Shown here one piece after another: positions 1 through 25,012 of a DNA stretch of 64,000 nucleotides (position 1 is its first letter; the number at the start of each line of letters is the position of its first letter). Under the pieces are notes generated by a model. That model made no database searches, had not been told where the DNA came from, and worked only from the letters and a program-made list of their open reading frames with translations. Position numbers and translations under genes: made by a program. Source of the DNA: Sphingopyxis sp. OPL5 (GTDB taxonomy: Bacteria > Pseudomonadota > Alphaproteobacteria > Sphingomonadales > Sphingomonadaceae); the NCBI RefSeq assembly GCF_003797775.2, contig NZ_CP060725.1, positions 2,288,001 through 2,352,000 of the forward strand, in the 5' to 3' direction.

Positions 1-913
1 CGAGCGCGTTGCCCAGCAGGCTGCCGTCGGCGACCGGGGCGCGGACCGCGGCCTCGCCGATCGCGACGGCATTGCCTTGCCAGCTTTGCACGAGACGACC
101 GGGAGCGTCGCCGCCCGCCGCGATCGTCGCGCTCCATGGGCGGGTTTGCCAGTGCAGCGCGTCGGATGCCGTCGTCAGCACCTCCTCGCCGATCGCGCCG
201 GCGCCTCCGGGCGCGACGGCAAGCGTCAGCGCCGGCAGCGATGGCGACCAGTCAAGCCAGCCAACACCCAGTGCGGACAGCAGGCGCGAGCGCGGACCGG
301 CGGCGTCGATGTAAAGATCGGCGGTCAGCGTTTCGCCCGCCGGGGTGACGATGCCCTGGATGGCCTTGCCGCCGGTTTCGACCCGAATGCCGGCAGCGTC
401 GCGCCGGACGATGTTCAGCGTCGCCGCCATGTCACCGAGCAAGGCGGCATAAGCGGCGGCATCGAAACGCGCGCCGAAACCGCCTTCGTCGCCGCGCGCG
501 TCGCGCAGCGCGAGCAGCATCGCGGCGAAATCGGGGGTGGCGTCGGTGGTTTCGGCGCGGTGGCGGAGCCAGATCTGATGGAGCGCGACGCCTTCGACGA
601 AGGGAATCGCGGTGGTGGCCGCCTCGCGAACCGCGGTGCCATCCGCCGCGACATAGCGTCGCAGATGAACCGGTTCGGCCTTGGCGCGCCGGGCGAACAG
701 CCGGGGGTCGAGGCCGATCTGGCGGTGAAATTTGTGGATGACCGGGGTGGCCGCGCCGAGCCGGTCGATCCAGCCTCCCCGATCGGCCGGCAGCTGGACG
801 AGCGTGACCGCCGCGCCCGGCAACGCCCGGCGCAGCGCGATCGCCGCCGCGAGACCGACGATACCGTCGCCGATGACCAGCACCGATCGGGTTTGGGCGT
901 GCGCGCCGGTCAT
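1..913 (-). CDS. Tryptophan halogenase-like flavoprotein, divergent, partial (C-terminus outside window)
   Basis: Reading down from ATG at 913 the frame stays open for 304 codons to the window edge. The N-terminus (MTGAHAQTRSVLVIGDGIVG) has a Rossmann FAD-binding GxGxxG. A later segment, LTADLYIDAAGPRSRLL, matches the 'DLFIDCSGFRALL' segment of flavin-dependent halogenases, so I place it in that superfamily. It lacks the GVGEAT loop: the equivalent position reads RLGAATPVIHKF. I also cannot find the FKLG lysine that forms the halogenating adduct in PrnA-type enzymes. It may therefore be a degenerate or non-halogenating paralogue. Its ATG overlaps the stop of the neighbouring canonical halogenase by 4 bp (ATGA), so it is the third gene of the GH43-halogenase-halogenase-like operon. 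Confidence 0.7.
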   Translation of the reverse strand, partial: MTGAHAQTRSVLVIGDGIVGLAAAIALRRALPGAAVTLVQLPADRGGWIDRLGAATPVIHKFHRQIGLDPRLFARRAKAEPVHLRRYVAADGTAVREAATTAIPFVEGVALHQIWLRHRAETTDATPDFAAMLLALRDARGDEGGFGARFDAAAYAALLGDMAATLNIVRRDAAGIRVETGGKAIQGIVTPAGETLTADLYIDAAGPRSRLLSALGVGWLDWSPSLPALTLAVAPGGAGAIGEEVLTTASDALHWQTRPWSATIAAGGDAPGRLVQSWQGNAVAIGEAAVRAPVADGSLLGNAL

Positions 914-2421
914 GCCGCCTCCCACGCCCCCGCCTGCCGCAGATATTCAGCGTGGTCGGGCCACGCCGCGACGCGGCTCCGGATCGCGCCGTCAAGGTCC
1001 GCCAGCGACTGCGCGATGCGGTTCTGCGGCGGGATGTCGGCGCGCTGGTCGTAACCGCGCGGCATCACCCCCTGGCCGAGGTACACCGCGACCCAGCTCG
1101 CCTCGAGGAACAGGCCCTCGGTATAGAGTTCGACCCGCCCGCTGTCTTTCCACAGCGCCATCTTGCGCTCGAGTTCGGGGGGCAGCGCCATCGTGCGGAC
1201 ATGGTTCCAGAAGTCCGAATCGTCGCGCCGCGTTGCATGATAATGGAGGATCAGGAAGTCGCGGATACGGTCATATTCGCGGTCGACCAGCGCGTTGAAA
1301 CTGTCGCGATCGCACGCGTCGATCCGGCGCTGCGGAAACAGCTCGACCAGCCGTGTCACCGCCTGCTGGACGAGGTGGATACTCGTCGATTCGAGCGGCT
1401 CAAGGAAACCGCTGGCGAGCCCGATCGCGACGACGTTGCGATCCCAGCTTTTCGTCCGCCGCCCGGCGCGAAAGCGCAGCACGCGCGGGTCGGCGAGCGG
1501 CTCGCCCTCGACTGCGCCGAGGATCGCGGCGCAGGCCTCGTCCTCCGACACATGGTTGCTGGAAAAGACATAGCCATTGCCGACGCGATGCTGCAGCGGG
1601 ATGCGCCAGCGCCAGCCGGCGGGCATCGCGGTCGCGCGCGTATAGGGTTCGATCGGACCGTCGGGCGCGGCGCAGGGCAGGGCGGCGGCGCGGTCGCACG
1701 GCAACCATTCGGACCAATCCTCCCACGGCGATTGCAGGGTTTCGCCGATCAGCAGCGCGCGAAAGCCCGAGCAGTCGATGAACAGGTCGCCTTCGATCAC
1801 ATCGCCGCGATCGGTGCGCAGCCGGGCGACATCGCCGCTTGCCGCGTCGCGTTCGACCGCGACGACCTTGCCCTCGGTGCGCCGGGTGCCATGCGCCTCG
1901 GCGAAGCGGCGCAGCATCGGCGCCATGCGGGTGGCGTCGAACTGATAGGCATAGCTGTAGCTGCTATCGAGGAGGTCGCCGCCCTCCGGGACCGGGGCGA
2001 AGCGTTTGCCGCGTGCCGCGACGATCGGCAGCGAGAAATCGCAGATCGGCGGGACCTGTCCCGCGGCCTGCATCCGCAGCCAATAATGGTGGAAACCGAC
2101 CCCCGCTATGTCGGTGCCATAAGCCCCGAAGGGATGAATATAGCGCTCGCCGATCGCGCCGAAATCGACGAAGTCGATGCCGAGCTTGAAGGTCGCGCGG
2201 GTGGTGCGCATGAATTCCATCTCGTCGAGCCCGAGGCGGCGGATGAATTCGCGCAGATGCGGCAAGGTGGCTTCGCCGACCCCGACGATGCCGATTTCCT
2301 CGGACTCGATCAGCTGGATGTCGGCCTGTCCGGGCAGCAATTTGGCGAGCGCGGCGGCGGTCATCCAGCCGGCGGTGCCGCCGCCCAATATGACGACGCG
2401 GACGGGGGCGGGGGCGTTCAA
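910..2421 (-). CDS. Flavin-dependent tryptophan halogenase family protein
   Basis: 503 aa, starting at TTG 2421, which overlaps the GH43 stop (TTGA). Seen in the sequence: FAD-binding ILGGGTAGWMTAAALAK near residues 11-27, GVGEATLP near 47-54, the lysine of TFKLGIDF at residue 79, the WRWRIP (WxWxIP) motif and the EPLEST segment. These are the hallmarks of flavin-dependent halogenases, which use FADH2, O2 and halide to make a hypohalous acid carried by the active-site lysine. The substrate is unknown. Family members next to TonB receptors in sphingomonads and Caulobacter are annotated as tryptophan halogenases without tested substrates. Position in a xylanolytic operon behind a xyl-type operator implies co-expression with xylan breakdown. 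No partner flavin reductase is seen in the window. Confidence 0.87.
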   Translation of the reverse strand: MNAPAPVRVVILGGGTAGWMTAAALAKLLPGQADIQLIESEEIGIVGVGEATLPHLREFIRRLGLDEMEFMRTTRATFKLGIDFVDFGAIGERYIHPFGAYGTDIAGVGFHHYWLRMQAAGQVPPICDFSLPIVAARGKRFAPVPEGGDLLDSSYSYAYQFDATRMAPMLRRFAEAHGTRRTEGKVVAVERDAASGDVARLRTDRGDVIEGDLFIDCSGFRALLIGETLQSPWEDWSEWLPCDRAAALPCAAPDGPIEPYTRATAMPAGWRWRIPLQHRVGNGYVFSSNHVSEDEACAAILGAVEGEPLADPRVLRFRAGRRTKSWDRNVVAIGLASGFLEPLESTSIHLVQQAVTRLVELFPQRRIDACDRDSFNALVDREYDRIRDFLILHYHATRRDDSDFWNHVRTMALPPELERKMALWKDSGRVELYTEGLFLEASWVAVYLGQGVMPRGYDQRADIPPQNRIAQSLADLDGAIRSRVAAWPDHAEYLRQAGAWEAA

Positions 2422-4124
2422 GGCGCCGCGTCCGCGCGCGCGGCGTGCGGGCCGATCACCGCGCCGGTGAACAGGCCGGCACCGACGGTCGCGAGGATCG
2501 ACGCGTCGACTCCGGTCGCCAGTTGCTGCCAGTCGGCGGCGCCGTGCACGCGCCACCGCAGGTCGGCCTTGTCGCGCCTGATGCGGACCTGCAGGTCGAT
2601 CGCCCCCGGCACCTTGTCGGCGAGCGCGACGCGGCCCGTCACCACGCCGTCCGCCGGTTCGCCGTCGCCGGCGCGGCGGCGCACGACGATCGCGTCGCCG
2701 TCCGCCAGCCGCTCGCGGCCGAGGAAGAGGAAATGATTCTCGTCGGTGAGCGCGAGCAGCCCGGCACGGTCGCCGACCGCCTGCGGCGCGAACGCGACGC
2801 TGGTCTCGATCACCGCGTCATGGTGGCGCAATCTTTTGCCGACGAAACTCGGCTGGTCCAGCGATCCCGCGGCGACCGGCCGCGCGGTCAGGTGCAGCGC
2901 GCCGCGCTGGTCCGACAGGCTCCACCAGTTTCGCCCGCGCAGCGTGCGCAGCATCATCCAGTCGAGCGCCAGCCGGCTGTCGTCGAATTCGTCGCGCCAG
3001 TCGTCGAGGCTGTCGCCCGCGAACGCCGGCAGGGCGGGGCGCCTGGCGGTCGGCGGCACCGCCGCCCCCGGCGGCAATATCTCCGGCCAGCCGTCCTTCC
3101 ATGCCACCGGCAACAGGAAGATCTCGCGCCCCAAATTGGTCTGTTGCCCCGCATAGGGGCGCGTCGCGAGGAACACCGCCCACCAGCTGCCATCGACGAG
3201 CTCGACGAAGTCGGCATGGCCGGTCGCCTGCACCGGCCACGCGCGGCCCTCGGGCAGGTCGCGCTGGGTCAGGATCGGATTGCGCGGACCCGCGACATAG
3301 GGTCCGGTCACCGTCTCGGCGCGGTAGATCGTCTGGCTGTGCCGGTCGGCGGTGCCGCCCTCGGCCGCGGTCAGATAATAGAAGCGCCCGACCTTGTAGA
3401 TATGCGGCCCCTCGGCCCACACCGGCTTGTCGGCGGCGACGACGCCCTTGTCGACAAGCAGGGTGCGCGTCGCGGCCATCTTCATCGCGGCAAGGTCGAT
3501 CTGCTGGATCCACAGCGCCCGGTGGCCATCATATTCGGGCGGTCCGGGCGGCGCATCATTATAGGCGATCCACGCGCGCCCGTCGTTATCGACGAACAGC
3601 GACGGGTCGATGCCGCCGAAATCCAGCCAGTGCGGATCGGACCAGGGCCCCGCCGGGTCGTCGGCGGTGATGATGAAATTGCCCCCGCAGTCGATGCAGG
3701 TGTTGACGATATAGAAACGGTCGCCGTGGTGGCTGATCGCCGGCGCGAACAGGCCGCGCGTCACCCCGACCTTGCCGATCGTCAGCTGGCCGGGCCGGTC
3801 GATCGCATTGCCGATCTGGCGCCAGTGGACGAGGTCGCGGCTGTGATAGACCGGCAGGCCTGGGAACCAGCTGAAGGTCGAATTGACCAAATAATAATCG
3901 TCGCCGACCCGGACGACCGACGGGTCAGGCTGGAACCCCGGGAGAACCGGATTGGCAAATTCTCCGGGTTTCAGGGCAGACGATTCGGCATCGGGCGTGC
4001 CCGAATAGGCGACATAGTCGAAGCGAGCGACCGGCGCGGCGGCACCCTGCGCGGCGACCGGTGCGGTCGCCAGCGCCAACACCAGCGCTGACGTCGGCCA
4101 AGCAATATTGCGCCAACCTGGCAA
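2418..4124 (-). CDS. Glycoside hydrolase family 43 (beta-xylosidase / alpha-L-arabinofuranosidase), secreted
   Basis: 568 aa from TTG 4124, chosen because GGGAGGAAC lies just upstream and the resulting N-terminus is a clean signal peptide (hydrophobic run about residues 8-25, cleavage near PVAAQG). An in-frame ATG at 4202 would add 26 residues. The GH43 five-blade propeller starts at FANPVLPGFQPDPSVVRVGD, with the catalytic base Asp near 67 (QPDPS), then YLVNSTFSWFPGLPVYHSRD. The C-terminal part (from about WRDEFDDSRLALDW) looks like the beta-sandwich found in two-domain GH43 xylosidases. It removes xylose or arabinose from xylo-oligosaccharides, probably in the periplasm. It is first in an operon with two halogenase-type genes, transcribed away from xylX across a shared operator. 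Confidence 0.88.
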   Translation of the reverse strand: MPGWRNIAWPTSALVLALATAPVAAQGAAAPVARFDYVAYSGTPDAESSALKPGEFANPVLPGFQPDPSVVRVGDDYYLVNSTFSWFPGLPVYHSRDLVHWRQIGNAIDRPGQLTIGKVGVTRGLFAPAISHHGDRFYIVNTCIDCGGNFIITADDPAGPWSDPHWLDFGGIDPSLFVDNDGRAWIAYNDAPPGPPEYDGHRALWIQQIDLAAMKMAATRTLLVDKGVVAADKPVWAEGPHIYKVGRFYYLTAAEGGTADRHSQTIYRAETVTGPYVAGPRNPILTQRDLPEGRAWPVQATGHADFVELVDGSWWAVFLATRPYAGQQTNLGREIFLLPVAWKDGWPEILPPGAAVPPTARRPALPAFAGDSLDDWRDEFDDSRLALDWMMLRTLRGRNWWSLSDQRGALHLTARPVAAGSLDQPSFVGKRLRHHDAVIETSVAFAPQAVGDRAGLLALTDENHFLFLGRERLADGDAIVVRRRAGDGEPADGVVTGRVALADKVPGAIDLQVRIRRDKADLRWRVHGAADWQQLATGVDASILATVGAGLFTGAVIGPHAARADAAP

Positions 4125-4219
4125 CCCGTTCCTCCCGCCCCATACGTCCGGTCGGGTATCCCTCCCTCGCGGCGCATGATTTTCTATCGCCAACCTTGAC
4201 ACGATCCCCTAGAGCGTGA

Positions 4220-4233
4220 TGGTAGCGCTATCA
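4220..4233. promoter_or_regulatory. LacI-family (XylR-like) operator, site 1
   Basis: TGGTAGCGCTATCA, centred on the perfect 8-mer TAGCGCTA, lies between the divergent GH43-halogenase operon and the xylXABC-esterase operon. The same 14-mer recurs with at most two changes at 15578, 23387 and 26496, all in promoter regions of this locus. The lacI-type gene at 12221-13321 is the obvious candidate regulator. From memory, unverified, it resembles the site in the Caulobacter xylX promoter. Confidence 0.8.
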
Positions 4234-4263
4234 CAACAATGGCTGCGGGGAGGTTTCAGGTCA

Positions 4264-5403
4264 ATGGGTTTTGCGTTGAAGGCCGTTTTGCCGTCCGATT
4301 GGCGCGCCGCGCGCCTGCTCGGGCGAGTCGATTTTGGTGCGGGGCCGACCCCCGTGCTGATCGATGGCGGCACGCTCCATGACCTCACCCCCAGCGCTGC
4401 GACGGTATCGGCGGCGATCGCGCGGCGACAATGGCTGCCCGAACATGGCGAGCCGGTGTGCGAACTCGACGCGGACGCCCCGGCGCTGCCCGACGGCGCG
4501 ACCTTGCTCAGTCCCATCGACCTGCAATGCATCAAGGCGGCGGGGGTGACCTTCGCCGTCTCGGCGATCGAGCGGGTGATCGAGGAGCGCGCGCGCGGCG
4601 ACGCCTCGCAGGCGGCGACCATCCGCGCCGGGCTGGAGCAGCATGTCGGACAGGGCATAAGATCGGTCGTTCCCGGCTCGCCCGAGGCCGCGGCGCTCAA
4701 GGCGGCGCTGATCGCCGAGGGCATGTGGTCGCAATATCTGGAGGTCGCGATCGGCCCCGATGCCGAGGTCTTCACCAAGTCGGCGGTGCTCTCGTCGGTC
4801 GGTTATGGCGCCCCGATCGGCGTGCGGTCGGATTCGAGCTGGAACAATCCTGAACCCGAAATCGCGCTGATCATGGACGGCGCGGGTCAGGCGGTCGGCG
4901 CGACCTTGGGCAACGACGTGAATCTTCGCGATTTCGAGGGTCGCTCGGCGTTGCTGCTCGGCAAGGCGAAGGACAATAATGCCTCGGCCGCGCTCGGCCC
5001 CTTCATCCGCCTGTTCGACGACGGCTTCACCATCGACGATGTCCGGGGTGCTGAGGTCGACCTGCGGATCGAGGGCGCCGACGGCTATGTGCTGACCGGC
5101 CACAACCATATGGGGCAGATCAGCCGCGATCCGCTCGACCTCGCGGCGCAGGCGCGCAGCGAGCATCATTATCCCGACGGCTATGCGCTCTATCTCGGCA
5201 CCTTGTTCGCGCCGACCCAGGATCGCGACGTCGTCGGCGGCGGTTTCACCCACAAGGTCGGCGACCGGGTGACGATCTCGGCCGAACGGCTGGGGACGCT
5301 GGAGAATATCGTCACCACATCGCGCGATGCCCCCGCCTGGACGCTGGGCATCGCGGCCCTGTTCCGCAATCTGGCGAGCCGCGGGCTCATCGATCGCATC
5401 TGA
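4264..5403 (+). CDS. xylX: 2-keto-3-deoxy-D-xylonate dehydratase (FAH family)
   Basis: 379 aa. ATG 4264 follows GGGGAGG by about ten bases; upstream in-frame starts overlap the operator and were rejected. The fumarylacetoacetate-hydrolase fold shows the metal-binding set: WNNPEPEIAL (Glu197, Glu199) and LGNDVNLRD (Asp218), then the GKAKDNNASAALGP segment. In the Caulobacter Weimberg pathway XylX dehydrates 2-keto-3-deoxy-xylonate to alpha-ketoglutarate semialdehyde. Immediate linkage to the semialdehyde dehydrogenase, xylose dehydrogenase and lactonase genes makes that the likely reaction here. An arabinonate-pathway role cannot be excluded because FAH dehydratases of both pathways are similar. 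First gene of a five-gene operon behind operator site 1. Confidence 0.87.
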   Translation: MGFALKAVLPSDWRAARLLGRVDFGAGPTPVLIDGGTLHDLTPSAATVSAAIARRQWLPEHGEPVCELDADAPALPDGATLLSPIDLQCIKAAGVTFAVSAIERVIEERARGDASQAATIRAGLEQHVGQGIRSVVPGSPEAAALKAALIAEGMWSQYLEVAIGPDAEVFTKSAVLSSVGYGAPIGVRSDSSWNNPEPEIALIMDGAGQAVGATLGNDVNLRDFEGRSALLLGKAKDNNASAALGPFIRLFDDGFTIDDVRGAEVDLRIEGADGYVLTGHNHMGQISRDPLDLAAQARSEHHYPDGYALYLGTLFAPTQDRDVVGGGFTHKVGDRVTISAERLGTLENIVTTSRDAPAWTLGIAALFRNLASRGLIDRI

Positions 5404-5419
5404 AGGATCCGACTGCACA

Positions 5420-6859
5420 ATGACTTTGAAGCTTGGCCATTTGATAAACGGCGAACGCATCGGCGCCGACAGCGCCGCGCTGGAAAGCCTGAACCCGTCG
5501 AACACCGACGAGGTCGTGGCGCTGTTCCCGGCCGGTGACACGGCTGCGGTCGATGCCGCGGTCGCCGCCGCGCGGGCCGCGCAGCCGGGCTGGGCCAACG
5601 CCTCGCCCGAAGTGCGCGCCGACCTGCTCGACAAGGTCGCAGCGACGATCTTGGCGCGCGCCGCCGAGCTTGGCGAACTGCTCGCGCGCGAGGAGGGGAA
5701 AACCCGTGCCGAGGGCATGGGCGAAGTGATGCGCGCCGCGCGCATCTTCCGCTATTTCGGCGGCGAGGCGCTGCGCCGCCATGGCCAGACGCTCGAATCG
5801 ACGCGCCCCGGCCTCGACGTCGCGACCTATCGCGAGGCGGTCGGCGTGTACGGCCTGATCACCCCGTGGAATTTCCCGATCGCCATTCCCGCTTGGAAAT
5901 CCGCCCCCGCACTCGCCTTCGGCAATGCGGTGGTGATGAAGCCCGCCAATGTCACCCCGGCGACCGCGAGCGCGCTCGCCGACATCATCGTCGAATGCGG
6001 TGCGCCGCCGGGGGTGTTCAACCTCGTCCTCGGCCAGGGCCAGGTCGGCGCCGCGATCGCCGACCATGGCGGCATCGATGCCATCTCCTTCACCGGCTCG
6101 CAGGGCGTGGGGGCAAAGGTCGGCATGGCCGCGATGGCGCGGCAGGCGCGGGTGCAGCTGGAGATGGGCGGCAAGAATCCGCTCGTCATCCTCGCCGATG
6201 CCGATCTCGACAAGGCGGTGGGAATCGCGCTCGACGGCGGCTTCTTCCAGACCGGCCAGCGCTGCACCGCCTCGTCGCGGGTGATCGTCGAGGATGCGAT
6301 CCACGACCGTTTCGTTGCCGCACTGGCGGAAAAGGCCAAAGGGCTGCGCGTCGGCGCGGCGCTCGACCCCGAAACGCAGGTCGGCCCCGCAGCGAGCGAA
6401 GCGCAGTTCGAGCAGAATCTGCGCTATGCGAAGATCGCCGTCGATGAAGGCGGGCGCTGTGTCACCGGCGGCGGCGAAGTGAAGGGCGCGACGCCCGGCT
6501 ATTATATGGCGCCGACGCTGATCGCCGACACCGATCCCGATATGCGGATCAACAACGAAGAGGTGTTCGGCCCGGTGGTCTCGACGGTGCGGGTCAAGGA
6601 CTATGACGCCGCGCTCGAACTCGCCAACGCCGGCGAATTCGGGCTGTCGTCGGGCATCGTCACCAACAGCCAGAAACACGCCCGCCATTTTCGCAAACAT
6701 GTCCGCGCCGGCATGGTGATGGTCAATCTGCCGACCGCCGGGGTCGATTATCACGTCCCCTTCGGCGGCACGCGAAAATCGAGCTATGGTGCGCGCGAAC
6801 AGGGCTTTGCTGCGGTCGAATTCTACACCCAGATCAAAACGGTCTACACGGGGGATTGA
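5420..6859 (+). CDS. xylA: Alpha-ketoglutarate semialdehyde dehydrogenase
   Basis: 479 aa from ATG 5420 (AAGGA about 12 bp upstream). NAD(P)-dependent aldehyde dehydrogenase fold: ITPWNFP (Asn151), FTGSQGVG cofactor loop, LEMGGKN with the general base Glu248, and GQRCTASS with nucleophile Cys282. It oxidises 2,5-dioxopentanoate to alpha-ketoglutarate, the last Weimberg step, feeding the TCA cycle. The assignment to this substrate rests on position between xylX and xylB, the same order as the Caulobacter xylXABCD operon. Do not confuse it with E. coli xylA, which is xylose isomerase. 16 bp separate it from xylX; its stop overlaps the earliest possible start of xylB. Confidence 0.87.
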   Translation: MTLKLGHLINGERIGADSAALESLNPSNTDEVVALFPAGDTAAVDAAVAAARAAQPGWANASPEVRADLLDKVAATILARAAELGELLAREEGKTRAEGMGEVMRAARIFRYFGGEALRRHGQTLESTRPGLDVATYREAVGVYGLITPWNFPIAIPAWKSAPALAFGNAVVMKPANVTPATASALADIIVECGAPPGVFNLVLGQGQVGAAIADHGGIDAISFTGSQGVGAKVGMAAMARQARVQLEMGGKNPLVILADADLDKAVGIALDGGFFQTGQRCTASSRVIVEDAIHDRFVAALAEKAKGLRVGAALDPETQVGPAASEAQFEQNLRYAKIAVDEGGRCVTGGGEVKGATPGYYMAPTLIADTDPDMRINNEEVFGPVVSTVRVKDYDAALELANAGEFGLSSGIVTNSQKHARHFRKHVRAGMVMVNLPTAGVDYHVPFGGTRKSSYGAREQGFAAVEFYTQIKTVYTGD

Positions 6860-6861
6860 GC

Positions 6862-7650
6862 GTGCTGACTCGGGCGACCATGATCGACAAATCGGCGGCG
6901 AAATATCCCAGCCTCGCCGGCAAGCGCGTGCTGGTGACCGGCGGCGCGACCGGGATCGGCGAAGCGCTGGTGACCGGCTTTGCGAAACAGGGCGCGCATG
7001 TCGCCTTCCTCGACATGCAGGGTGACGCGGGCGCGGCGCTGGTCGAACGGCTGTCGGGCGCGGTCGCGGTGGCGCCGCGCTTCGCGCTGTGCGACCTCAC
7101 CGACCTTTCCAGCCTCGACCGGACCGTCGCGGCGCTGCGCGCCGACGTCGGCGACTTCGACATATTGCTCAACAATGCGGCGAGCGACGATCGTCACGCG
7201 ATCGGCGATGTAACCCCCGCCTATTGGGACGAAAGGATCGCGGTCAATCTGCGCCACCTGTTCTTCGCGGCGCAGGCGGTGATCCCGGGGATGAAGGCCG
7301 CCGGCGGCGGGTCGATCGTCAATTTCGGGTCGATCAGCTGGCACCTCGCGCTGCCCGACCTCGTCCTCTACCAGACCGCCAAGGCCGCGATCGAGGGGAT
7401 GACGCGGTCGATGGCGCGCGAACTCGGCGCCGACAATATCCGCGTCAACACGATCATCCCCGGCAATGTCGAAACCCCGCGCCAGGCGCAATGGTACACG
7501 CCTGAGGGCGAGGCCGAGATCATCGCGGCGCAATGTCTGAAGGCGCGCATCCAGCCTGCCGATATCGCGGCGATGGCGCTGTTCCTCGCCTCCGACGACG
7601 CGCGCATGTGCACCGGCCACGACTATTGGGTCGACGCGGGCTGGCGCTGA
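6862..7650 (+). CDS. xylB: D-xylose 1-dehydrogenase (SDR family)
   Basis: 262 aa from GTG 6862, preceded by GGGGGA. TTG 6856 and ATG 6880 are alternatives; ATG 6880 would give the shorter N-terminus MIDKSAAKYPSLAGKRV. Classical short-chain dehydrogenase: TGGATGIG (about 26-33), NNAA (about 104-107), and the catalytic Ser157, Tyr170 and Lys174 (GSISW, YQTAK). The residues around KYPSLAGKRVLVTGG resemble Caulobacter XylB. It oxidises D-xylose to xylonolactone with NAD+, the entry step of the Weimberg pathway. Its stop overlaps the start of the lactonase by one base (TGATG). Confidence 0.85.
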   Translation: MLTRATMIDKSAAKYPSLAGKRVLVTGGATGIGEALVTGFAKQGAHVAFLDMQGDAGAALVERLSGAVAVAPRFALCDLTDLSSLDRTVAALRADVGDFDILLNNAASDDRHAIGDVTPAYWDERIAVNLRHLFFAAQAVIPGMKAAGGGSIVNFGSISWHLALPDLVLYQTAKAAIEGMTRSMARELGADNIRVNTIIPGNVETPRQAQWYTPEGEAEIIAAQCLKARIQPADIAAMALFLASDDARMCTGHDYWVDAGWR

Positions 7651-8525
7651 TGGCGACGACGCCCGAACCGGTCGCCTTTCCCTCGACGTCGCTGGGCGAG
7701 GGGCCGGTGTGGGACGCCGCGCGGCAGCGCCTGTGGTTCGTCGATATCAAGCTGCGCCGGCTTTTCCGGTTCGATCCCGCGTCGTCGACGCTCGACCAAT
7801 GGGACGCGCCGGGCGAAATCGGCTGGGCGCTGCCGGCCGACGACGGGCGCCTGCTCTGCGGATTGCAGGATGGGCTCCACTGGTTTGACCCGGCGCGCGG
7901 CGCATTCGCCGCATGGCTGGCGGTCGAGGCGGATAGGCCCGGAAACAGGCTCAACGACGCGTGCACCGATCGCGACGGCGCGGTCTGGTTCGGGTCGATG
8001 GACAACGCGTGCGTTGCCGAAACCGGCAGCTTCTATCGACTGGCGGCGGGGCAGGTCGAGCAAGCCGGGCCGAGCAAGGTCGCGATCACCAACGGCCCCG
8101 CCATCGCGCCCGACGGTGCGACGATCTATTTCACCGACACGATGGCCGGGAAAATCTGGGCCGCGACGATCGGGCCGGACGGGATGCCCGGCGCGCTGCG
8201 ACCCTTTGTGACCTTCAGCGGCGATATGGGTCACCCCGACGGATCGATCACCGACGCCGCGGGCAATCTCTGGGTTGGCTGCTACGCCGGCTGGGCGGCG
8301 CGCTGTTTCAACCCGGCGGGCGAGGAGATTGCGAAGGTTGATTTCCCGACCGCCAACATCACCAAGCTCGCCTTTGGCGGCGCCGGCCTCGCGACGCTCT
8401 ATGCGACCTCGGCGCATCAGGAAATGATCGACGCCGACCGCGCCGCGCAGCCGCTCGCGGGCGCCTTGTTCGCATTCCGTCCAAAGGTCGGTGGCCATCC
8501 GCTACCGCTGGTGCGCGCGTCGTGA
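7650..8525 (+). CDS. xylC: Xylonolactonase (SMP-30/gluconolactonase family)
   Basis: 291 aa. ATG 7650 overlaps the xylB stop (TGATG). SMP-30 six-bladed propeller features: LGEGPVWD with metal-ligand Glu17, then GNRLNDACTDRDGAVWFGSMD-like text with the Asn and Asp ligands, YFTDTMAGKI, and GHPDGSITDAAGNLWVG. These enzymes hydrolyse sugar lactones with a divalent metal. In this operon the substrate should be D-xylono-lactone released by XylB. There is no signal peptide, so it is cytoplasmic. The stop overlaps the GTG of the downstream esterase. Confidence 0.87.
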   Translation: MATTPEPVAFPSTSLGEGPVWDAARQRLWFVDIKLRRLFRFDPASSTLDQWDAPGEIGWALPADDGRLLCGLQDGLHWFDPARGAFAAWLAVEADRPGNRLNDACTDRDGAVWFGSMDNACVAETGSFYRLAAGQVEQAGPSKVAITNGPAIAPDGATIYFTDTMAGKIWAATIGPDGMPGALRPFVTFSGDMGHPDGSITDAAGNLWVGCYAGWAARCFNPAGEEIAKVDFPTANITKLAFGGAGLATLYATSAHQEMIDADRAAQPLAGALFAFRPKVGGHPLPLVRAS

Positions 8526-15548: not shown

Positions 15549-15577
15549 GACTTGACAGCCCGGGGCGCTTTCTTTCA

Positions 15578-15591
15578 TGGTAGCGCTAACA
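15578..15591. promoter_or_regulatory. LacI-family operator, site 3
   Basis: TGGTAGCGCTAACA, with the invariant TAGCGCTA core, lies in the 92-bp gap between the divergent GH67-lacI-xylD and GH3-GH10 operons. It is about 30 bp upstream of the GH67 ATG and 50 bp upstream of the GH3 ATG, so one repressor site could control both directions. Confidence 0.8.
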
Positions 15592-15640
15592 TAAGCGCGG
15601 GGAATCGATCTGCGCAAGAAAAATCGGGAGAGACACGATC

Positions 15641-18049: not shown

Positions 18050-19218
18050 TCGATGCGGCGTTTAGTCGGCGGGAGGTGGTGGCGGGCCTGTCGGCGTTGT
18101 CGCTGACCGCCTGCGCGGGCGCCGCCGGGCTGACCACCGCCGCGCCGCCGGCCACCGGCGAAGGCCTGCACCGGATCGCGGCGCGCAAGGGACTGCGGTT
18201 CGGTTCGGCGATCGGTTATGGGGCGGAAGGGTCGGACAGTGGTTCGATCGGCAACCCGGCGTACCGGGCGATCGTCGAGCGCGAGTGCGGGCTGGTCGTC
18301 GCCGAAAATGAAATGAAGTGGCAGGCGATCCGCCCCGGCCCCGACGCTTATGACTTCGCCGCCTTCGACGCGATCGTCCGCTACGCGAAATCGAAGGGCC
18401 TCGATATTCGTGGTCACACCCTGCTCTGGCATCGCCCGAAATGGCTGCCCGAGTGGGTCAACAACTACGACTATGGCGCCCGCCCCGCGACCGAGGCCGC
18501 GCGGCTGGTGACCAGCCATATCGAGACGGTGACGCGGCGCTATCGCGGCACCATCCACAGCTATGACGTCGTCAACGAATTGTTCGACGACAAGAGCGGC
18601 GCCTTCGTCGACACGTCGCTGTCGACCGCGATGCGCAGTCATGAGGCCGTCGTCGACCTGGCGTTCCACACCGCGCGGCAAGAGCTGCCCGACGCCGAAC
18701 TCGTCTATAACGACTATATGAGCTGGGAGCCGGGCCATGCGAACCATCGCGCCGCGGTGCTCCGCCTCCTCGAAGGATTCCGCAAGCGCGGCGTGCCGTG
18801 CGACGCGCTCGGCATTCAGTCGCATATCGAGATGCGGACGATCGACCGCGCGACGGGTATCGGCCCCTATGACCTGAAAGAATGGCGCGCCTTCTGCGAC
18901 GACGTCACCGGCATGGGCTACCGGCTGCTGCTCACCGAATTCGACGTCAAGGACAATGGCCTGCCCGCCGACCATGTCGCGCGCGACGCCGGGGTCGCCA
19001 ACTACACCCGCGCCTATCTGGAGGTGATGCTGTCCTATCCGCAGCTTCGCGACATATTGGGCTGGGGCATGGTCGACAAGTTCAGCTGGCTGCAGGGTTT
19101 CGCCCCGCGCGCCGACGGCCTGCCGCAGCGCTGTTGCCCCTATGGCGACGATTACCGGCCGCATCCGATGCGCGCCGCGCTCGCCGATCTGTTCGCCGGT
19201 GCCGCGCCGCGCGCTTGA
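18046..19218 (+). CDS. Endo-1,4-beta-xylanase GH10 with Tat-lipoprotein-like signal
   Basis: 390 aa from GTG 18046, overlapping the GH3 stop (GTGA). The N-terminus FSRREVVAGLSALSLTACAG combines a twin-arginine-like SRR motif with a lipobox (LTAC, Cys23), suggesting Tat export and lipid anchoring. GH10 catalytic residues are visible: acid/base Glu178 in DVVNELFD and nucleophile Glu298 in LLLTEFDV; GHTLLWHRPKWLP is also typical. It cleaves the xylan backbone to oligosaccharides taken up by the TonB receptor or processed in the periplasm by GH67, GH43 and GH3. 30 bp separate it from the DUF6445-like gene downstream. Confidence 0.9.
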   Translation: MIDAAFSRREVVAGLSALSLTACAGAAGLTTAAPPATGEGLHRIAARKGLRFGSAIGYGAEGSDSGSIGNPAYRAIVERECGLVVAENEMKWQAIRPGPDAYDFAAFDAIVRYAKSKGLDIRGHTLLWHRPKWLPEWVNNYDYGARPATEAARLVTSHIETVTRRYRGTIHSYDVVNELFDDKSGAFVDTSLSTAMRSHEAVVDLAFHTARQELPDAELVYNDYMSWEPGHANHRAAVLRLLEGFRKRGVPCDALGIQSHIEMRTIDRATGIGPYDLKEWRAFCDDVTGMGYRLLLTEFDVKDNGLPADHVARDAGVANYTRAYLEVMLSYPQLRDILGWGMVDKFSWLQGFAPRADGLPQRCCPYGDDYRPHPMRAALADLFAGAAPRA

Positions 19219-19248: not shown

Positions 19249-19977
19249 ATGAACGCCGCGCCCGATTGCAGGCCCGCCGACGCCGCGGTCATCGACATCC
19301 TCGCGATCGGGGTCGAGCAGGTGCCGCTGATCCGGATCGACGGCGCGACCACCGATCCGCAGGCGCTCGTCGCTTTCGCCGCCGACGCGGTGGCCTTCGC
19401 GCCGGTCACGGGCAATCTCTACCCCGGCCTGCGCGCGCCGATGCCGCTCGCCTATGTGAGGTCGATGGTTGCGCGGCTCGATCCGCTGATCCGCCGCGTC
19501 CATCGGCTGGGGCCTGTGCGGCTGGTCCGCGCCGAATGTTTCTTCTCGATCGTCACGACCCCGGCCGCCGAGCTCGTCCCGCTGCAGACGGTGCCGCATA
19601 TCGACACCAGCGACCCGCTGCATTTCGCGACCGTCCATTATCTCTGCCCGCCACATTTCGGCGGCACCGCCTTTTTCCGCCAGCTGTCGACGGGGTTCGA
19701 GACGATATCGCCGACCCGTGAGGCGGCGTGGGATCGCGCGCGCGACGCCGCGATGCCCGCGTACGGGAATCCCGCTTACCCGTCCCGCGATACGCCCGGC
19801 CATGCCCGCGTCGCCGCGATTGCGGCGGTATTCGACCGGCTGATCCTCTATCGCAGCAACGCGCTGCATGCGGGCATCATCGATCCGGCGATCGACCATC
19901 CGGGTGATCCGCGCGCCGGCCGGCTCACCGCGACGATGTTCATCGCCTATCGGCCGGACTCGCTGTCGCGGACATAA
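19249..19977 (+). CDS. DUF6445-like protein with a 2OG-Fe(II)-type residue pattern
   Basis: 242 aa, soluble, no signal peptide; ATG 19249. I recall similar proteins (DUF6445) beside TonB receptors and tryptophan halogenases in Caulobacterales and sphingomonads; no function is established to my knowledge. The sequence shows VPHIDTSDPLHFATVHYL (His117-x-Asp119), a distal His207 in NALHAGI and Arg225 in GRLTATMF. This order is that of the HxD...H...R facial triad plus 2-oxoglutarate-binding Arg of prolyl-hydroxylase-like Fe(II) dioxygenases. Dioxygenase activity is my inference from spacing only. It lies 30 bp after GH10, so it is probably co-expressed with xylan enzymes under operator site 3. 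Confidence 0.65.
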   Translation: MNAAPDCRPADAAVIDILAIGVEQVPLIRIDGATTDPQALVAFAADAVAFAPVTGNLYPGLRAPMPLAYVRSMVARLDPLIRRVHRLGPVRLVRAECFFSIVTTPAAELVPLQTVPHIDTSDPLHFATVHYLCPPHFGGTAFFRQLSTGFETISPTREAAWDRARDAAMPAYGNPAYPSRDTPGHARVAAIAAVFDRLILYRSNALHAGIIDPAIDHPGDPRAGRLTATMFIAYRPDSLSRT

Positions 19978-20033: not shown

Positions 20034-23000
20034 CTAGAAGGTAAAGCGGGCCAGGATCGTGAAGCGCCGGTCGCTCATATACCATTGGCGCGGGACATAT
20101 TGGATATCGCCGCTGCCGTTGAGCACCGCCGCTTCGGTCTTGGTCTGCGAGTTCAGGATATTCACCGCCTGAATGCCCAGCTTGAACTGGTCGGTGACGG
20201 TGACCGTCGCCGAGGCGTCGAGCTGGCCATAGGCGCGCTGGAAGATCGGATCGAACGGTGTGATCACGTCGCGGATCGTCAGCAGATAGCGCGAGCGCCA
20301 GTTGTACGAGGCGCGCAGCGACAGCGGGCCGATGTCGATGAACGGCGTGATGTTGATCGTATGTTTCGACAGTCCCTGGAGCGGGAAACTGTCGCCGGAA
20401 ATCGCCGACTGGCGCCCCGCGGCGACATCGGGGTCGGTCGCCGACAGCGTCGTCTGCGGCACCCCCGACGATTTGACATAGGTATAGGTCGCCTGCAGCC
20501 CGAGTCCCGACAGAGGTCCCGGCAGGAAGTCGAAGACCTGCTGGTACGACACCTCGGCGCCGGTGACCTTGCCGGTGTCGGGCGAGTTGATCGCGGTCGT
20601 CAGCACCACCGGGAAGGTCGCGCCGTTGTTGGTCAGGTCGGTCGAAACCGTCGCGTTGGTCACGACATTGTGCAGCCGTTTGTGGAACATCGACAGCGTC
20701 ACCTGTCCGACCTTGCTGAAATAATATTCGGCGGTGAGGTCGAAATTGTCCGATGTCGTCGGCAGCAGATTGGGATTGCCCGCCGTGACCGTCGACTGGA
20801 TCGTGAAGCTGCCCGGGATCGCCGCGCCGCTACTGTCGACATTCTGGTTGGCGCTGAGACCCGTGACGTTGAAATAGTTGCGCGAGAAGCCGAAGGGCGG
20901 GGCGAAGACGCCCTTGAAATAGCCGGCGCGGAATTGCAGCCCGCCGCCGACTTCGAGCTTCAGGTTCACGCTCGGCAGGAAATAATCATAGTTGGTCTTG
21001 GCGTCGATCGGCAGCAGCGCGCCGTTCAGATAGTTGCGTGCCTGCTGGCGCACCGCCGGGGTGAAGGTACAGAAACCCGTCGCCGGCTGCCCGGCGTTCG
21101 CCGCATCGATGCAAGCCTGTTCGCTGGTGATCGACGTCGGGTTGTTGGCGAACTGCTGGAACCCCTGCGAGGTGCGCTTGGTGCGCGTATACCGCAGCCC
21201 GACATTGCCGGTGAAGCGCATCCCGCTGCCGAATTCGCTGTCGAACTTGATCATGCCGTAAAGCGCCAGATTCTTGTTCTGCTGCGGATTGATCTCGCCC
21301 GGCTGGAACGGCGTACCGGCGACATTGCCGCAGCGATCGGCCAGCGAGTTCCACCCCGCATTGATCGTCCGGCCGTCGATGCCGCAGGTGGTCGTCCCCT
21401 GCCATTCGCGCGCGATCGCATTGGCATAGGCGATATAGGCGGCGCGGTCCTTGACCGTGTTACCCGAATAGAAAAGGCGGCCCTGGCCCGCGATCGGGTT
21501 GTTGGCGGCGCCGCGGAAGAAATTGGGATAGAAGACCTCTTCATACCCCGGCAGCGGTGCCCCGCCATTGCCGCCGGTCACGTTGTCGACATTGTCGTCG
21601 AACCACACCGGGCCGCCATTGCCCCATTGCTCGCTGAGCACGCCCCAATTGTAGATCGAGAAACGCGCGGTCTGCTCGGTGTCGGCATAGCGTCCGCCGA
21701 CCTGCAGCGATTTCAGGAAGCCGCTGTCGGGAAAGGACAGTTCGGCGTCGACGCGGAAGGCGTCCTCGCTGCCATCACTCTGTTCCAGATGGTCCATCGC
21801 CGAACGGTAGAAGCTGTTGAACGGATCGGTGAAGCTTTGGTGGCTGCCGGTGAAATAGGAGGGCGAATTGGCGGCGAAGCCGGGATTGCCCTGGCAGGGC
21901 GCGGGATCGCAATTCTGCGGCGGGATGAACTGCACGAATGGCAGGCCATGGCCATTGAGGTCGATCATCGCATCCTGATAGGTCGAGCCCCAAAGCGTAT
22001 TGTCCTCGACGTCGCTTTTCGAATCGACATGCTGATAGTCGAGATTGATCGCCAGGTTTTCGCTGGGGGTCCAGCGCAAGTTCGCCGAATAATCGGTCGT
22101 CTTGATCCGTTCATAATGGTCGCGGCGGATATTGTTCGACTGCAGCCCCAATATGGGCGTGCGAATGTCACCCGTCGCATTTTGCTGGTCGGCGCGCCAG
22201 CCGGTCGGGCCGGTGATCACGCCATTTTCGAAGACGCCGCTGTCGTCGAATTCCAGCGAGGTGCCCGCGACGGCGCGCGAATCGCCATTGTTCGACACAT
22301 TGTCGGTGGCGATTTCGATCGTATTCTCGCTCCACGCCTGACGCGCGTCGGACCGCAGGAACTGGAAGGTCGCCGCGAGCGTCCCGTCGTTGCTTTCCCA
22401 CTGCGCGGCGGCCGAATAGCCATAGCGTTCGCGGTTGAAATTCTGGCGGCCGAGCACGGCGCCGCGCGGGAACAGCGCCGAGGGTCCCGCGGTCGCGCCG
22501 GCGAACGGTACGACGTCGGTGCGCGTCCCGTCCGAATAGGTGGTGCGCGGGCGGAAGCTGGAGATACCGATGCGATCGGCCTGCGAATAAAGCTGCGAAT
22601 AGGAGGCGCTGGCGAGCAGGCCGATTTCGCCGATTCCGGTCGACCAGCGGTTGCTGATCAATCCCGAAAAGGTCGGCGCCGATTTCTTGACGAAGTCGCC
22701 ATAGTTGAGTTCGAGCGAGCCCGCGACGAGCAGGCCGCTCTGGTCGAAGGGCAGGCGGGTGCGCAGGTTGACGATGCCGCCGATGCCGCCTTCGATCAGG
22801 TCGGCCGACGGGGTCTTGTAGACGTCGACCCCGGCGAGCAGTTCCGACGGCACGTCGGCGAAGCTCAGCCCCGACCCGTTGCCGGCGCTGAACGCGTCGC
22901 GGCCGTTGAAGCGCGATCCGACATAGCTGAGGCCGCGAATGGTGACGCCCGATCCCTCGACCGAGAAATGGTCGGGATCGACGCCCGCCGAAAAGCGGTT

Positions 23001-23330
23001 GATGGTGACCCCGGGGATGCGCTGCAGCGCCTCGGTCACCGAGCGGTCGGGGAGGGCGCCGATATCTTCGGCGGTGATCGAATCGATGACGGTGTCGGCG
23101 TTTTCCTTGCGCCCCTGCGCGCTTTGCAGCGCGGCGCGGAAGCCGGTGACGACGATCTCGGGCGCGTTCGACGGGTCGGCGACCTCGTTGGTGTCGGTGT
23201 CCTGGGCAAAGGCCGGGGTAGCGATTATCGCGGAGGCGACGAGCGCCAGCGTCGAAACGCCCAGGCGAAGCCAGGGCGCGTTGTGATTCGTGAGCCGAAC
23301 GTCACGAGAAAACGTCGTTACAACAGGCAT
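20034..23330 (-). CDS. TonB-dependent receptor, xylo-oligosaccharide type
   Basis: 1098 aa. ATG 23330 with AGGGG upstream. Signal peptide to about residue 42 (ATPAFAQ), TonB box PEIVVTG (about 57-63), then the plug domain (ENADTVIDSITAEDIGALPD, ALQRIPGVTINR). The long 22-strand barrel ends in aromatic RFTF, as expected for Bam-assembled outer-membrane proteins. This size and plug wording match the carbohydrate TonB receptors of Caulobacter and sphingomonads rather than siderophore receptors. Context and operator site 4 directly upstream imply import of xylo-oligosaccharides. It is monocistronic, divergent from a halogenase. Confidence 0.88.
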   Translation of the reverse strand: MPVVTTFSRDVRLTNHNAPWLRLGVSTLALVASAIIATPAFAQDTDTNEVADPSNAPEIVVTGFRAALQSAQGRKENADTVIDSITAEDIGALPDRSVTEALQRIPGVTINRFSAGVDPDHFSVEGSGVTIRGLSYVGSRFNGRDAFSAGNGSGLSFADVPSELLAGVDVYKTPSADLIEGGIGGIVNLRTRLPFDQSGLLVAGSLELNYGDFVKKSAPTFSGLISNRWSTGIGEIGLLASASYSQLYSQADRIGISSFRPRTTYSDGTRTDVVPFAGATAGPSALFPRGAVLGRQNFNRERYGYSAAAQWESNDGTLAATFQFLRSDARQAWSENTIEIATDNVSNNGDSRAVAGTSLEFDDSGVFENGVITGPTGWRADQQNATGDIRTPILGLQSNNIRRDHYERIKTTDYSANLRWTPSENLAINLDYQHVDSKSDVEDNTLWGSTYQDAMIDLNGHGLPFVQFIPPQNCDPAPCQGNPGFAANSPSYFTGSHQSFTDPFNSFYRSAMDHLEQSDGSEDAFRVDAELSFPDSGFLKSLQVGGRYADTEQTARFSIYNWGVLSEQWGNGGPVWFDDNVDNVTGGNGGAPLPGYEEVFYPNFFRGAANNPIAGQGRLFYSGNTVKDRAAYIAYANAIAREWQGTTTCGIDGRTINAGWNSLADRCGNVAGTPFQPGEINPQQNKNLALYGMIKFDSEFGSGMRFTGNVGLRYTRTKRTSQGFQQFANNPTSITSEQACIDAANAGQPATGFCTFTPAVRQQARNYLNGALLPIDAKTNYDYFLPSVNLKLEVGGGLQFRAGYFKGVFAPPFGFSRNYFNVTGLSANQNVDSSGAAIPGSFTIQSTVTAGNPNLLPTTSDNFDLTAEYYFSKVGQVTLSMFHKRLHNVVTNATVSTDLTNNGATFPVVLTTAINSPDTGKVTGAEVSYQQVFDFLPGPLSGLGLQATYTYVKSSGVPQTTLSATDPDVAAGRQSAISGDSFPLQGLSKHTINITPFIDIGPLSLRASYNWRSRYLLTIRDVITPFDPIFQRAYGQLDASATVTVTDQFKLGIQAVNILNSQTKTEAAVLNGSGDIQYVPRQWYMSDRRFTILARFTF

Positions 23331-23386
23331 TTAAACCCCTCCCATGTCATGGGCCTTTTCGGCCTCATCGGGTTGCGCTGCCGAAA

Positions 23387-23400
23387 AGGTAGCGCTACCA
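23387..23400. promoter_or_regulatory. LacI-family operator, site 4
   Basis: AGGTAGCGCTACCA lies in the 179-bp gap between the divergent TonB receptor and halogenase genes, 57 bp upstream of the receptor ATG. The inner 12 bases are a perfect palindrome; only the first base departs from the shared 14-mer. Confidence 0.8.
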
Positions 23401-23509
23401 TTTACCTGTCATATGATATAGGTCGGGTTTCGACAAGCGGTGATTTGCCTTAGCGACGAATAGCGACGATCGTGTGTGATAAAAATGCCGACGTTGAAGG
23501 GGGAGTGCG

Positions 23510-25012
23510 ATGGAAGCGACCAGGATTCAATCGATCGTCATCGTCGGCGGCGGCACCGCCGGCTGGATGACCGCGGCGGCCCTCGCGCGGATATTGGGCC
23601 CCGATTATGCCAGCATCACCCTCGTTGAATCGGACGAGATCGGCACCGTCGGGGTCGGCGAGGCGACGATCCCGCAGATCAACATCTTCAACCGCATGCT
23701 CGGGATCGACGAGGACGACTTCGTCCGCCGTACCAAGGGCAGCTTCAAGCTCGGGATCGAATTCGTCGACTGGGGCGGCATCGGCCAGCGCTATTTCCAC
23801 CCCTTCGGCAATATCGGGGTCGATATGGGCGGGGTGTCGTTCCACGCCTTCTGGCAGCGGCTGCGCGGCGAAGCCGAATTCGCCGACGTCGAGGATTATT
23901 CGGTGATGGCCAAGGCGGCGCGCCACGGCAAGTTCATGCGCCCGACCACCGCCCCCGGCTCGCTGCTCTCCTCGATCGCCTATGCCTTTCATTTCGATGC
24001 CGGGCTTTACGCCCTCTATCTGCGCGAGCTGGCCGAGGGCAGCGGGGTCACCCGGATCGAAGGCAAAATCACCGGCGTGACGCGAAACGGCGAGAGCGGC
24101 CACATCGAAAATGTGACGATGCAGGACGGCCGCACGGTGGACGGGCAGTTGTTCATCGACTGCTCGGGCTTTGCCGGCCTGCTCATCGGCCGCGAGCTCG
24201 AAGTGCCCTATATCGACTGGTCGGCGTTTCTGCCGTGCAACCGCGCGGTCGCGGTGCCGTGCGAACTCGGCGAAGATTTTTCCCCCTATACGCGCTCGAC
24301 CGCACGCTCGGCGGGCTGGCAGTGGCGCATCCCGCTCCAGCACCGCGTCGGCAACGGCCATGTCTATTGCAGCGACTATATCGGCGACGACGAGGCGGCG
24401 GCGGTGTTGCTCGCCAATCTGGGCGGCAAGCCGCTCGCCGATCCGCGCTTCCTGAAATTCACCACCGGTCACCGCGCGCGTTTCTGGGAAAAGAACTGCG
24501 TGTCGATCGGCCTGTCGGCCGGCTTCATGGAGCCGCTGGAATCGACGAGCATCTGGATGATTCAGACCGGCATTGCGCGCCTCCTGTCGAACTTCCCCGA
24601 TACCGGCTTCGAAGCCGCGAGCATCGACCGCTATAATCGCCTGATGGTCGAGGAGAGCGAATTGGTGCGCGATTTCCTCGTCCTTCATTACCATGTCACG
24701 ACGCGCGACGATTCGGACTTCTGGAATTATTGCCGGACGATGCCGATCCCGGACCGGCTCGCCGAAAAGATCCGCGTCTTTCAGAGCAGCGGCCGCGCCT
24801 TTCGCGAACATGAGGAATTGTTCAACGACACCAGCTGGTTCGCGGTGATGGAGGGGCAGCGGCTCGGCGCGCGCCGCTACGATCCCGTCGCCGAACTGAT
24901 GCCGATCGAGCAGACGCGCGATCGGCTGCGCCAGATCAAGGCGGCGGTGACCGCATCGGTCGACCATATGCCGCGCCACCGCGACTATATCCGCGACCAT
25001 TGCGCCGCATGA
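23510..25012 (+). CDS. Flavin-dependent tryptophan halogenase family protein
   Basis: 500 aa; ATG 23510 with GGGGGAG upstream. Motifs: IVGGGTAGWMTAAALAR (about 11-27), GVGEATIP (48-55), catalytic-lysine segment GSFKLGIEF (Lys80), WQWRIP (Trp270/Trp272) and EPLESTS (341-347). All residues expected for a working halogenase are present. It is divergent from the TonB receptor across operator site 4, so it is probably induced with it. It is a paralogue of the 910-2421 enzyme. Substrate unknown: free tryptophan, an aromatic released from plant cell wall, or a protein side chain are all open. It converges on the MFS permease gene with a shared terminator. Confidence 0.88.
   Translation: MEATRIQSIVIVGGGTAGWMTAAALARILGPDYASITLVESDEIGTVGVGEATIPQINIFNRMLGIDEDDFVRRTKGSFKLGIEFVDWGGIGQRYFHPFGNIGVDMGGVSFHAFWQRLRGEAEFADVEDYSVMAKAARHGKFMRPTTAPGSLLSSIAYAFHFDAGLYALYLRELAEGSGVTRIEGKITGVTRNGESGHIENVTMQDGRTVDGQLFIDCSGFAGLLIGRELEVPYIDWSAFLPCNRAVAVPCELGEDFSPYTRSTARSAGWQWRIPLQHRVGNGHVYCSDYIGDDEAAAVLLANLGGKPLADPRFLKFTTGHRARFWEKNCVSIGLSAGFMEPLESTSIWMIQTGIARLLSNFPDTGFEAASIDRYNRLMVEESELVRDFLVLHYHVTTRDDSDFWNYCRTMPIPDRLAEKIRVFQSSGRAFREHEELFNDTSWFAVMEGQRLGARRYDPVAELMPIEQTRDRLRQIKAAVTASVDHMPRHRDYIRDHCAA

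Follow-up and report, generated by a model that had tools for sequence, protein, structure and literature searches.

Flavin-dependent halogenases and a conserved pseudo-halogenase in a glucuronoxylan locus of Sphingopyxis sp. OPL5 and their link to a class of TonB-dependent receptors

Why do genes for flavin-dependent halogenases lie in a locus for the utilisation of glucuronoxylan? The question is raised by a stretch of 64,000 nucleotides of Sphingopyxis sp. OPL5 (G000:C1:2288001-2352000, from one 4.68-Mb contig; hereafter the window), the start of which falls inside such a locus. An earlier note on this DNA had described two intact halogenases and one divergent copy as hard-wired into a xylan regulon. 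Here we find that the halogenases are linked to the TIGR01782 class of TonB-dependent receptors rather than to xylan. Furthermore, the divergent copy is, judging by its sequence, a pseudo-halogenase under purifying selection, a conserved dead partner that is new here.

Halogenases, operator and receptor class

The three genes described before were confirmed by their matches to PF04820. HAL1 (910..2421, minus strand, TTG start; slot S1) and HAL2 (23510..25012, plus strand; slot S4) match over their full length, with 617.7 and 623.4 bits respectively. DIVg (1..913, minus strand; slot S2) is cut by the window start and is whole in L011:15655-16926, where it is listed from an upstream GTG; it gives 87.6 bits over the N-terminal half. 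The set is larger than had been noted, as a third intact halogenase, HALF (L011:10637-12136, plus strand), lies around 4 kb beyond the window. The reported coupling to a xylosidase gene was also found: the stop codon of a GH43 beta-xylosidase with GH43_C2 (2418..4202, minus strand) is overlapped by the TTG start of HAL1 (CCTTGA, a TTGA overlap), and the start of DIVg at 913 overlaps the stop of HAL1 by ATGA. The minus-strand run that crosses the window start contains GH43, HAL1, DIVg, GH3 and cupin_8 in this order. GH5, aldose epimerase and HALF form a run in that order, with ATGA-type overlaps of four bases between the frames, and HAL2 is indeed divergently oriented from the TIGR01782 TonB-dependent receptor of the locus (20034..23330, minus strand, 645.5 bits), with a gap of 179 bp.

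Among the structures of the PDB, the best matches of HAL1 are BrvH (6frl), Xcc4156 (6y1w) and 9luq, at 474-482 bits, the next one scoring 290; the only matches of HAL2 below 1e-100 are again 9luq, 6frl and 6y1w, at 477-513 bits. GxGxxG, the catalytic Lys, WxWxIP and the active-site Glu are kept in HAL1, HALF and HAL2, a further likeness to these enzymes, as well as in HALA, HALC and HALE of the same genome; we assume for these residues the roles they have in halogenases of the PrnA type. By these matches, HAL1 and HAL2 are closer to BrvH and Xcc4156 than to the halogenases of free Trp, and HAL1, HALF and HAL2 are predicted to be flavin halogenases of the BrvH/Xcc4156 type within PF04820. The HAL1-type enzymes have particular positions of their own (H55, Y433, G436 and L439). 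Regarding HAL2, a protein of Sphingopyxis sp. H050 is 93% identical to it.

The transcription units of the locus have a 14-bp palindrome in common. The palindrome, TGNTAGCGCTANCA, follows the pattern of XylR-type operators and has four exact sites in the 4.68-Mb genome, all of them within 2279576-2314509 (35 kb). One lies before the GH5-epimerase-HALF run and three lie in the window: at 4220 (TGGTAGCGCTATCA, 4220..4233), before the GH43-HAL1-DIVg unit and a divergent catabolic unit; at 15578 (TGGTAGCGCTAACA, 15578..15591), where GH67 and GH3 diverge; and at 26496 (TGGTAGCGCTATCA, 26496..26509), upstream of a sugar transporter gene of the major facilitator superfamily (MFS). A copy with one mismatch (AGGTAGCGCTACCA, 23387..23400) lies between the receptor and HAL2, and further one-mismatch copies occur elsewhere in the genome, at 1011188, 1243413 and 4610419. 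That all four exact sites fall in one 35-kb stretch is far from chance. The motif itself is not over-represented, a reversed control pattern having 79 matches versus 8 per strand with at most one mismatch. Allowing two mismatches, the window contains five sites where 1.14 are expected, a number reached by 1 of 100 shuffles. Exact copies were found in 24 of 218 loci, some of which are overlapping stretches, and in L108, L126, L128 and L129 the copy falls in the gap between the receptor and the first halogenase.

A single LacI-type regulon is thus shown at the sequence level, in that its transcription units have the palindrome in common; binding and induction are predicted, and the candidate owner of the operator is a LacI-family regulator encoded at 12221..13321 (minus strand; PF00356, PF13377). 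Since they share the operator sequence, the halogenases may well be co-regulated with the xylan genes. The shared operator and the overlapping genes uphold the proposed wiring into the regulon. The tie to xylan itself is not supported, as like cassettes adjoin TIGR01782 receptors in other loci.

The genome has ten matches to PF04820, nine in three glycan loci and one alone. HAL1, DIVg, HAL2 and HALF belong to the xylan locus; HALA, DIVb and HALC belong to a chitin-type locus with GH18, GH20, GntR and a TIGR01782 receptor; and HALD and HALE lie in a third glycan locus with SapC, cupin_8 and GH3, beside another TIGR01782 receptor. Six TIGR01782 receptors of the genome score above the cut-off, and the three with an adjoining halogenase are the three top-scoring ones. 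In 17 other genomes of the order, a halogenase was found within 3 kb of 27 of the 58 TIGR01782 receptors sampled, at most 21 candidates having been scored per genome, so that receptors may be missing. Fewer than 200 bp separate the open frames in 21 of these 27 pairs, and 695-1875 bp in the remaining six. Among 79 loci picked by similarity to HAL2 and probed with the genes of the window's own genome, 67 have a TonB receptor, which in 57 is within 600 bp. Furthermore, on the receptor tree the linkage to a halogenase needs 5 changes, against a shuffled mean of 28, and is therefore largely a property of clades, with some gains or losses.

Some other families follow these loci in part. The best three of seven cupin_8 matches in the genome lie one per glycan locus; DUF6445 has one copy in the xylan locus (19249..19977, plus strand; PF20043, 237 bits) and one elsewhere, and SapC has one in the third glycan locus and one elsewhere. 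Among the matches listed, the relatives of the DUF6445 protein carry H-x-D and LH, presumably the pattern of the 2-oxoglutarate/Fe(II) oxygenases. In the third locus (L013:14242-17513) the order beside the receptor is HALD - SapC - cupin_8 - HALE, which recurs in Sphingopyxis L082-L086, L089 and L094, L082 being a contig without a receptor. The lone tenth halogenase, HALL (L014:10764-12302, that is G000:C1:1006778-1008154; 398 bits), lies outside the glycan loci; it adjoins an extensin-like protein and a weak Alginate_exp match, and the one-mismatch operator copy at 1011188 is around 3 kb off.

A dead partner behind the HAL1-type genes

DIVg lacks the catalytic Lys, WxWxIP and EPLES/Glu, and therefore does not have the residues of an active halogenase. 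DIVb likewise lacks the full catalytic set and has Asn at the Lys position; this second pseudo-halogenase (L012:14269-16023) is placed in the chitin-type locus between two intact ones. For the comparison we took 209 halogenase-type sequences, only those longer than 330 amino acids, most of which have the full catalytic set. A copy was called dead upon loss of the Lys, either Trp, the P/G or the Glu, so that by definition none of the 38 dead copies (36 from loci and our two) keeps all of them. Taken singly, the Lys is kept in 8, the second Trp in 4 and the Glu in 5 of them, and the GxGxx(G/A) motif in 30. Only four of the other 171 sequences are without Lys or Glu, all of them from L087 (an incomplete match) and L092 (disrupted genes).

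A database search, in which 8,000 candidates out of 5.8 billion proteins were scored, gave forty relatives of DIVg. None of the 40 has the catalytic Lys, the Glu position is occupied by Asp in every one, and some of them are annotated as tryptophan 7-halogenase. An alignment of 24 of the 40 has 97 invariant columns. Regarding selection, the dN/dS of S2 could be computed for 12 of 13 pairs, which share loci and are not independent, and ranged over 0.13-0.34. It was above that of the other halogenases of the same pair every time, and in one pair the receptor was higher (0.50). The dead copy has a mean log distance of 1.67, whereas the other three halogenases have 0.61-0.63.

The dead copy lies directly behind the first halogenase in all 36 loci where its slot could be assigned. 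The order is active-dead-active-active in 30 loci and active-dead-active in 4; the two variants are L023, which is cut by its contig, and L078, where the pair of HAL1 and dead copy is inverted yet together. At least three halogenase sequences are present in 39 loci, and 36 of these have the dead copy in order, the rest being L039, whose contig begins within the first gene, L092, with its disrupted genes, and L080. In a FastTree of 192 sequences, which left out those of at least 620 amino acids and those without a slot, the HAL1-type clade comprises 35 sequences, every one of which has a dead copy as its next gene. Given how dead copies were defined, the informative point is that they occupy a single slot and stand apart in the tree, with long branches.

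Other samples agreed with this. An order-wide sample of 30 loci not chosen by HAL2, taken from among the matches listed, contained ten HAL1-type genes besides the window's own, and all ten had the dead copy behind. In 12 whole genomes we found 11 dead copies, in nine genomes, and each one immediately follows an intact gene at its 3' side in the same orientation. Ten of these had first been called by score, and the residues then confirmed the ten and showed the copy of L241 (392 bits) to be degenerate as well; five sequences below 30 bits were excluded from the count, and those of about 400-435 bits were left out of the residue reading. Eight of the partners are new and of the HAL1 type by the tree, two were already known (L024, L045) and one is that of L241. 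A phylum-wide search of 299 genomes added one further HAL1-type gene, from another class, also with a dead copy behind it. Thus, every HAL1-type gene examined had its dead copy (35/35, 10/10, 8/8 and 1/1). Two candidates for a HAL1-type gene without partner were rejected: in L220 a very divergent dead copy was detected by profile in a wider stretch, and L120 is not of the HAL1 type by the tree. In L241 (G069:C4:16800-20800) the dead copy has Arg at the Lys position and lies behind an intact halogenase that is not of the HAL1 type, which may mean that dead copies originated or were relocated repeatedly.

The S1-S2 junctions have an NTGA overlap in 25 of 35 cases, 22 of them in-frame overlaps of 4 bases and three (L017-L019) longer. 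In Caulobacter L037 and L042 the receptor loci have only two halogenases, and the HAL1-type/dead pair is elsewhere in the genome, as it is in the genome of the window; the pair therefore stays together on leaving the receptor. The pairing is also retained in records titled Alpha- and Gammaproteobacteria. Two HAL1-type/dead pairs are present in G068, the genome of L058 (Asticcacaulis biprosthecium C19), whose 25 halogenase-family matches are the highest count of the 12 genomes searched.

What the halogenases may act on

According to the BrvH and Xcc4156 papers, these enzymes brominate indole and not free Trp, their active site is open and their native substrate is unknown. The authors liken the open sites to that of MibH and propose a larger or a peptide substrate; this is the likeness to the MibH-type peptide Trp halogenase, the identity reported between Xcc4156 and MibH being 26%. 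The BrvH paper also mentions another halogenase gene, 42.7% identical, that lies upstream of brvH. Whereas BrvH and Xcc4156 are treated in these papers as single enzymes, here we have a receptor-linked set that shares an operator and includes a dead paralogue. The operator in common, the linkage to the receptor and most of all the dead partner indicate where the substrate of the BrvH/Xcc4156 type should be sought, and they suggest that HAL1-type enzymes assayed alone may be missing half of the enzyme.

Our preferred reading, which is a tentative one, is a halogenation module dedicated to the receptor, with the dead paralogue as partner of HAL1 and a protein or peptide, perhaps the receptor, as the likely substrate. 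At the sequence level, the units of HAL1, HALF, HAL2 and the dead paralogue share one LacI-type operator with those of the receptor and of the enzymes for xylan; its binding and the induction are predicted. The dead paralogue would most likely be the non-catalytic subunit of the HAL1-type enzyme, binding or presenting the substrate. Most likely, the substrate would be a peptide or protein from the receptor's side of the system, the top candidate being the receptor before export, whose aromatic side chains would be halogenated, and extra modifications may come from the cupin_8 and DUF6445 proteins encoded in these loci. In its most specific form, the post-translational halogenation of outer-membrane glycan receptors before export, with halogenase sets of their own for receptors of one TonB-dependent class and with one halogenase steered by a dead paralogue that recognises the receptor, we regard this as speculative and rather unlikely. 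If proteins are the target, the surface of bacteria widespread in soil and water would carry a modification of a new kind.

Over 28 loci, the partial rank correlations of distances were 0.42 for S1-S2 (bootstrap 0.19 to 0.59), 0.37 for S2-receptor (0.19 to 0.47) and 0.06 for S1-receptor (-0.17 to 0.35). That S2 correlates with the receptor more than S1 does is a hint of contact of the dead copy on the receptor side, that is, of a dead copy which faces the receptor. With the receptor cut to 440 columns, S1-S2 was 0.43 and S1-receptor 0.12; with GH10 as control (14 loci), S1-S2 was 0.34, S2-receptor 0.56 and S1-receptor 0.03. That the receptor might be the hub for all three active enzymes was considered and rejected, as the receptor correlations of S3 and S4 were lost under this control; the chain from S1 over S2 to the receptor persisted.

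Nevertheless, several results weigh against a receptor-dedicated module. The distance correlations are not independent data, S2-receptor falls to 0.26 with the cut receptor, and under the GH10 control the strongest partner of S1 is GH10 (0.45), with S3-receptor at 0.20 and S4-receptor at 0.07. No Trp is invariant among the linked receptors in an alignment of 48 linked and 38 unlinked ones. The best column, W1011, has Trp in 37 of the 48 linked and 5 of the 38 unlinked receptors; it largely follows the receptor tree, and the independent-pairs test was not significant. Furthermore, no Trp difference separates the receptors whose locus has S1/S2 from those whose locus lacks them, although the genomes of the latter hold the pair elsewhere. 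Of the sampled TIGR01782 receptors, 31 of 58 are without a nearby halogenase, in L080 all three halogenases are intact and a dead copy is absent, and the dead copy is not always behind a HAL1-type gene, the intact partners in L034, L044 and L241 being outside the clade. Of the candidate substrates in the earlier note (an aromatic of the plant cell wall, an outer-membrane protein or a signal), the outer-membrane protein gives the best fit to the gene linkage, but an invariant target Trp was not found. Different target sites in different receptors, or another protein, are possible.

Two other candidate tests were set aside. W1011 is near-invariant in the loci selected by HAL2 and was rejected as general target because it is not Trp in 11 of the 48 linked receptors order-wide. 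Caulobacter L037 and L042 had been taken as a loss of S1/S2, with the receptor Trp unchanged, and are not a loss because the HAL1-type gene and the dead copy sit elsewhere in both genomes.

The main rival of a receptor substrate is a small aromatic, either an indole derivative or a phenolic of the plant cell wall, which would yield a signal or a defensive compound, or be detoxified, to the benefit of a cell feeding on polysaccharide. The in vitro bromination of free indole reported for BrvH and Xcc4156 agrees with it, as do halogenase genes under the putative operator of the polysaccharide genes; however, the BrvH authors consider indole unlikely as natural substrate, and separate paralogues adjoin the receptors of different loci, one of them chitin-type. 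We hold this rival doubtful. Regarding the dead copy, it might not be an adaptor but might stabilise or regulate HAL1, for instance by gating the active subunit within a heterodimer. Such a role would account for the constant pairing, the gene overlap, the S1-S2 correlation and the GxGxx(G/A) motif kept in most dead copies, but not for the S2-receptor correlation exceeding that of S1, and it appears unlikely to us.

It is more improbable still that the intact proteins no longer halogenate and carry out another flavin-dependent oxidation, such as a hydroxylation, of a substrate they have in common. Matches in NCBIfam to flavin monooxygenases would point that way, although they are weak, far below the cut-offs, accompanied by one to a halogenase and none of them direct, whereas Lys, Glu and WxWxIP are retained in HAL1, HALF and HAL2 and their nearest tested relatives are reported to brominate. 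Finally, the dead copy could be a pseudogene in decay, as its very fast divergence might suggest, and the cassette could be carried along without contributing to glycan uptake. This is hardly credible and already largely refuted by the low dN/dS, by the invariant columns and by a pairing kept across the proteobacterial records and after relocation.

Halogenases near TonB receptors may have been reported before. The enzyme class and the locus type are already known. The locus of the window has a TonB-dependent receptor, degradative enzymes, an inner-membrane transporter and a sugar regulator together, as in the carbohydrate utilisation loci with TonB-dependent receptors (CUT loci) of Xanthomonas and Caulobacter (PMC1790865). 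It also has halogenases, a word absent from the main text of that paper. Halogenase transcripts of Colwellia and phages have been described (PMC11337851), and no link to a receptor gene is reported in the accessible text. Among the open-access titles and beginnings of abstracts listed (for one query, 25 of 57 papers), subscription literature being outside the search, none describes the constant pseudo-halogenase, the operator in common or the linkage to a receptor class, and to this extent they appear new.

Other genes of the locus and the window

The catabolic unit that diverges from GH43 begins, on the plus strand, with an FAA-hydrolase-like enzyme (listed open reading frame 4216..5403; PF01557, 23.5 bits, just below the cut-off of 23.9), the real start of which is probably downstream of the operator at 4220. 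It is followed on the same strand by an aldehyde dehydrogenase (5327..6859; PF00171), a short-chain dehydrogenase (6856..7650; PF13561), an SMP-30/gluconolactonase-like lactonase (7533..8525; PF08450) and a SASA-type carbohydrate esterase (8522..10435; PF03629). An IlvD/Edd-type sugar-acid dehydratase (10443..12224, minus strand; PF00920/PF24877; NF009560, 994.8 bits) lies next to the LacI-family regulator. The sugar-acid enzymes resemble what we take to be an oxidative pentose route of the Weimberg type.

The GH67 alpha-glucuronidase (13386..15617, minus strand; PF07488, PF07477) is listed with a 5' end that overlaps the operator at 15578, and its real start is probably downstream of it. On the plus strand follow GH3 (15641..18049; PF00933) and a GH10 xylanase (17944..19218; PF00331), whose listed start overlaps GH3. 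The MFS sugar transporter (25063..26472, minus strand; PF00083) comes after HAL2.

Beyond the locus, a second TonB receptor, below the TIGR01782 cut-off, was found at 26970-31607 (plus strand) with a Peripla_BP_2 protein and an ABC (ATP-binding cassette) ATPase, a set that looks like vitamin- or siderophore-type uptake. A resistance-nodulation-division efflux set (OEP, AcrB-type, HlyD-type) lies at 34504-40279 (minus strand). At 41042-46594 (minus strand) there are adjacent DNA polymerase III alpha-like and ImuB-like genes, by their look a mutagenesis cassette of the imuAB-dnaE2 type.

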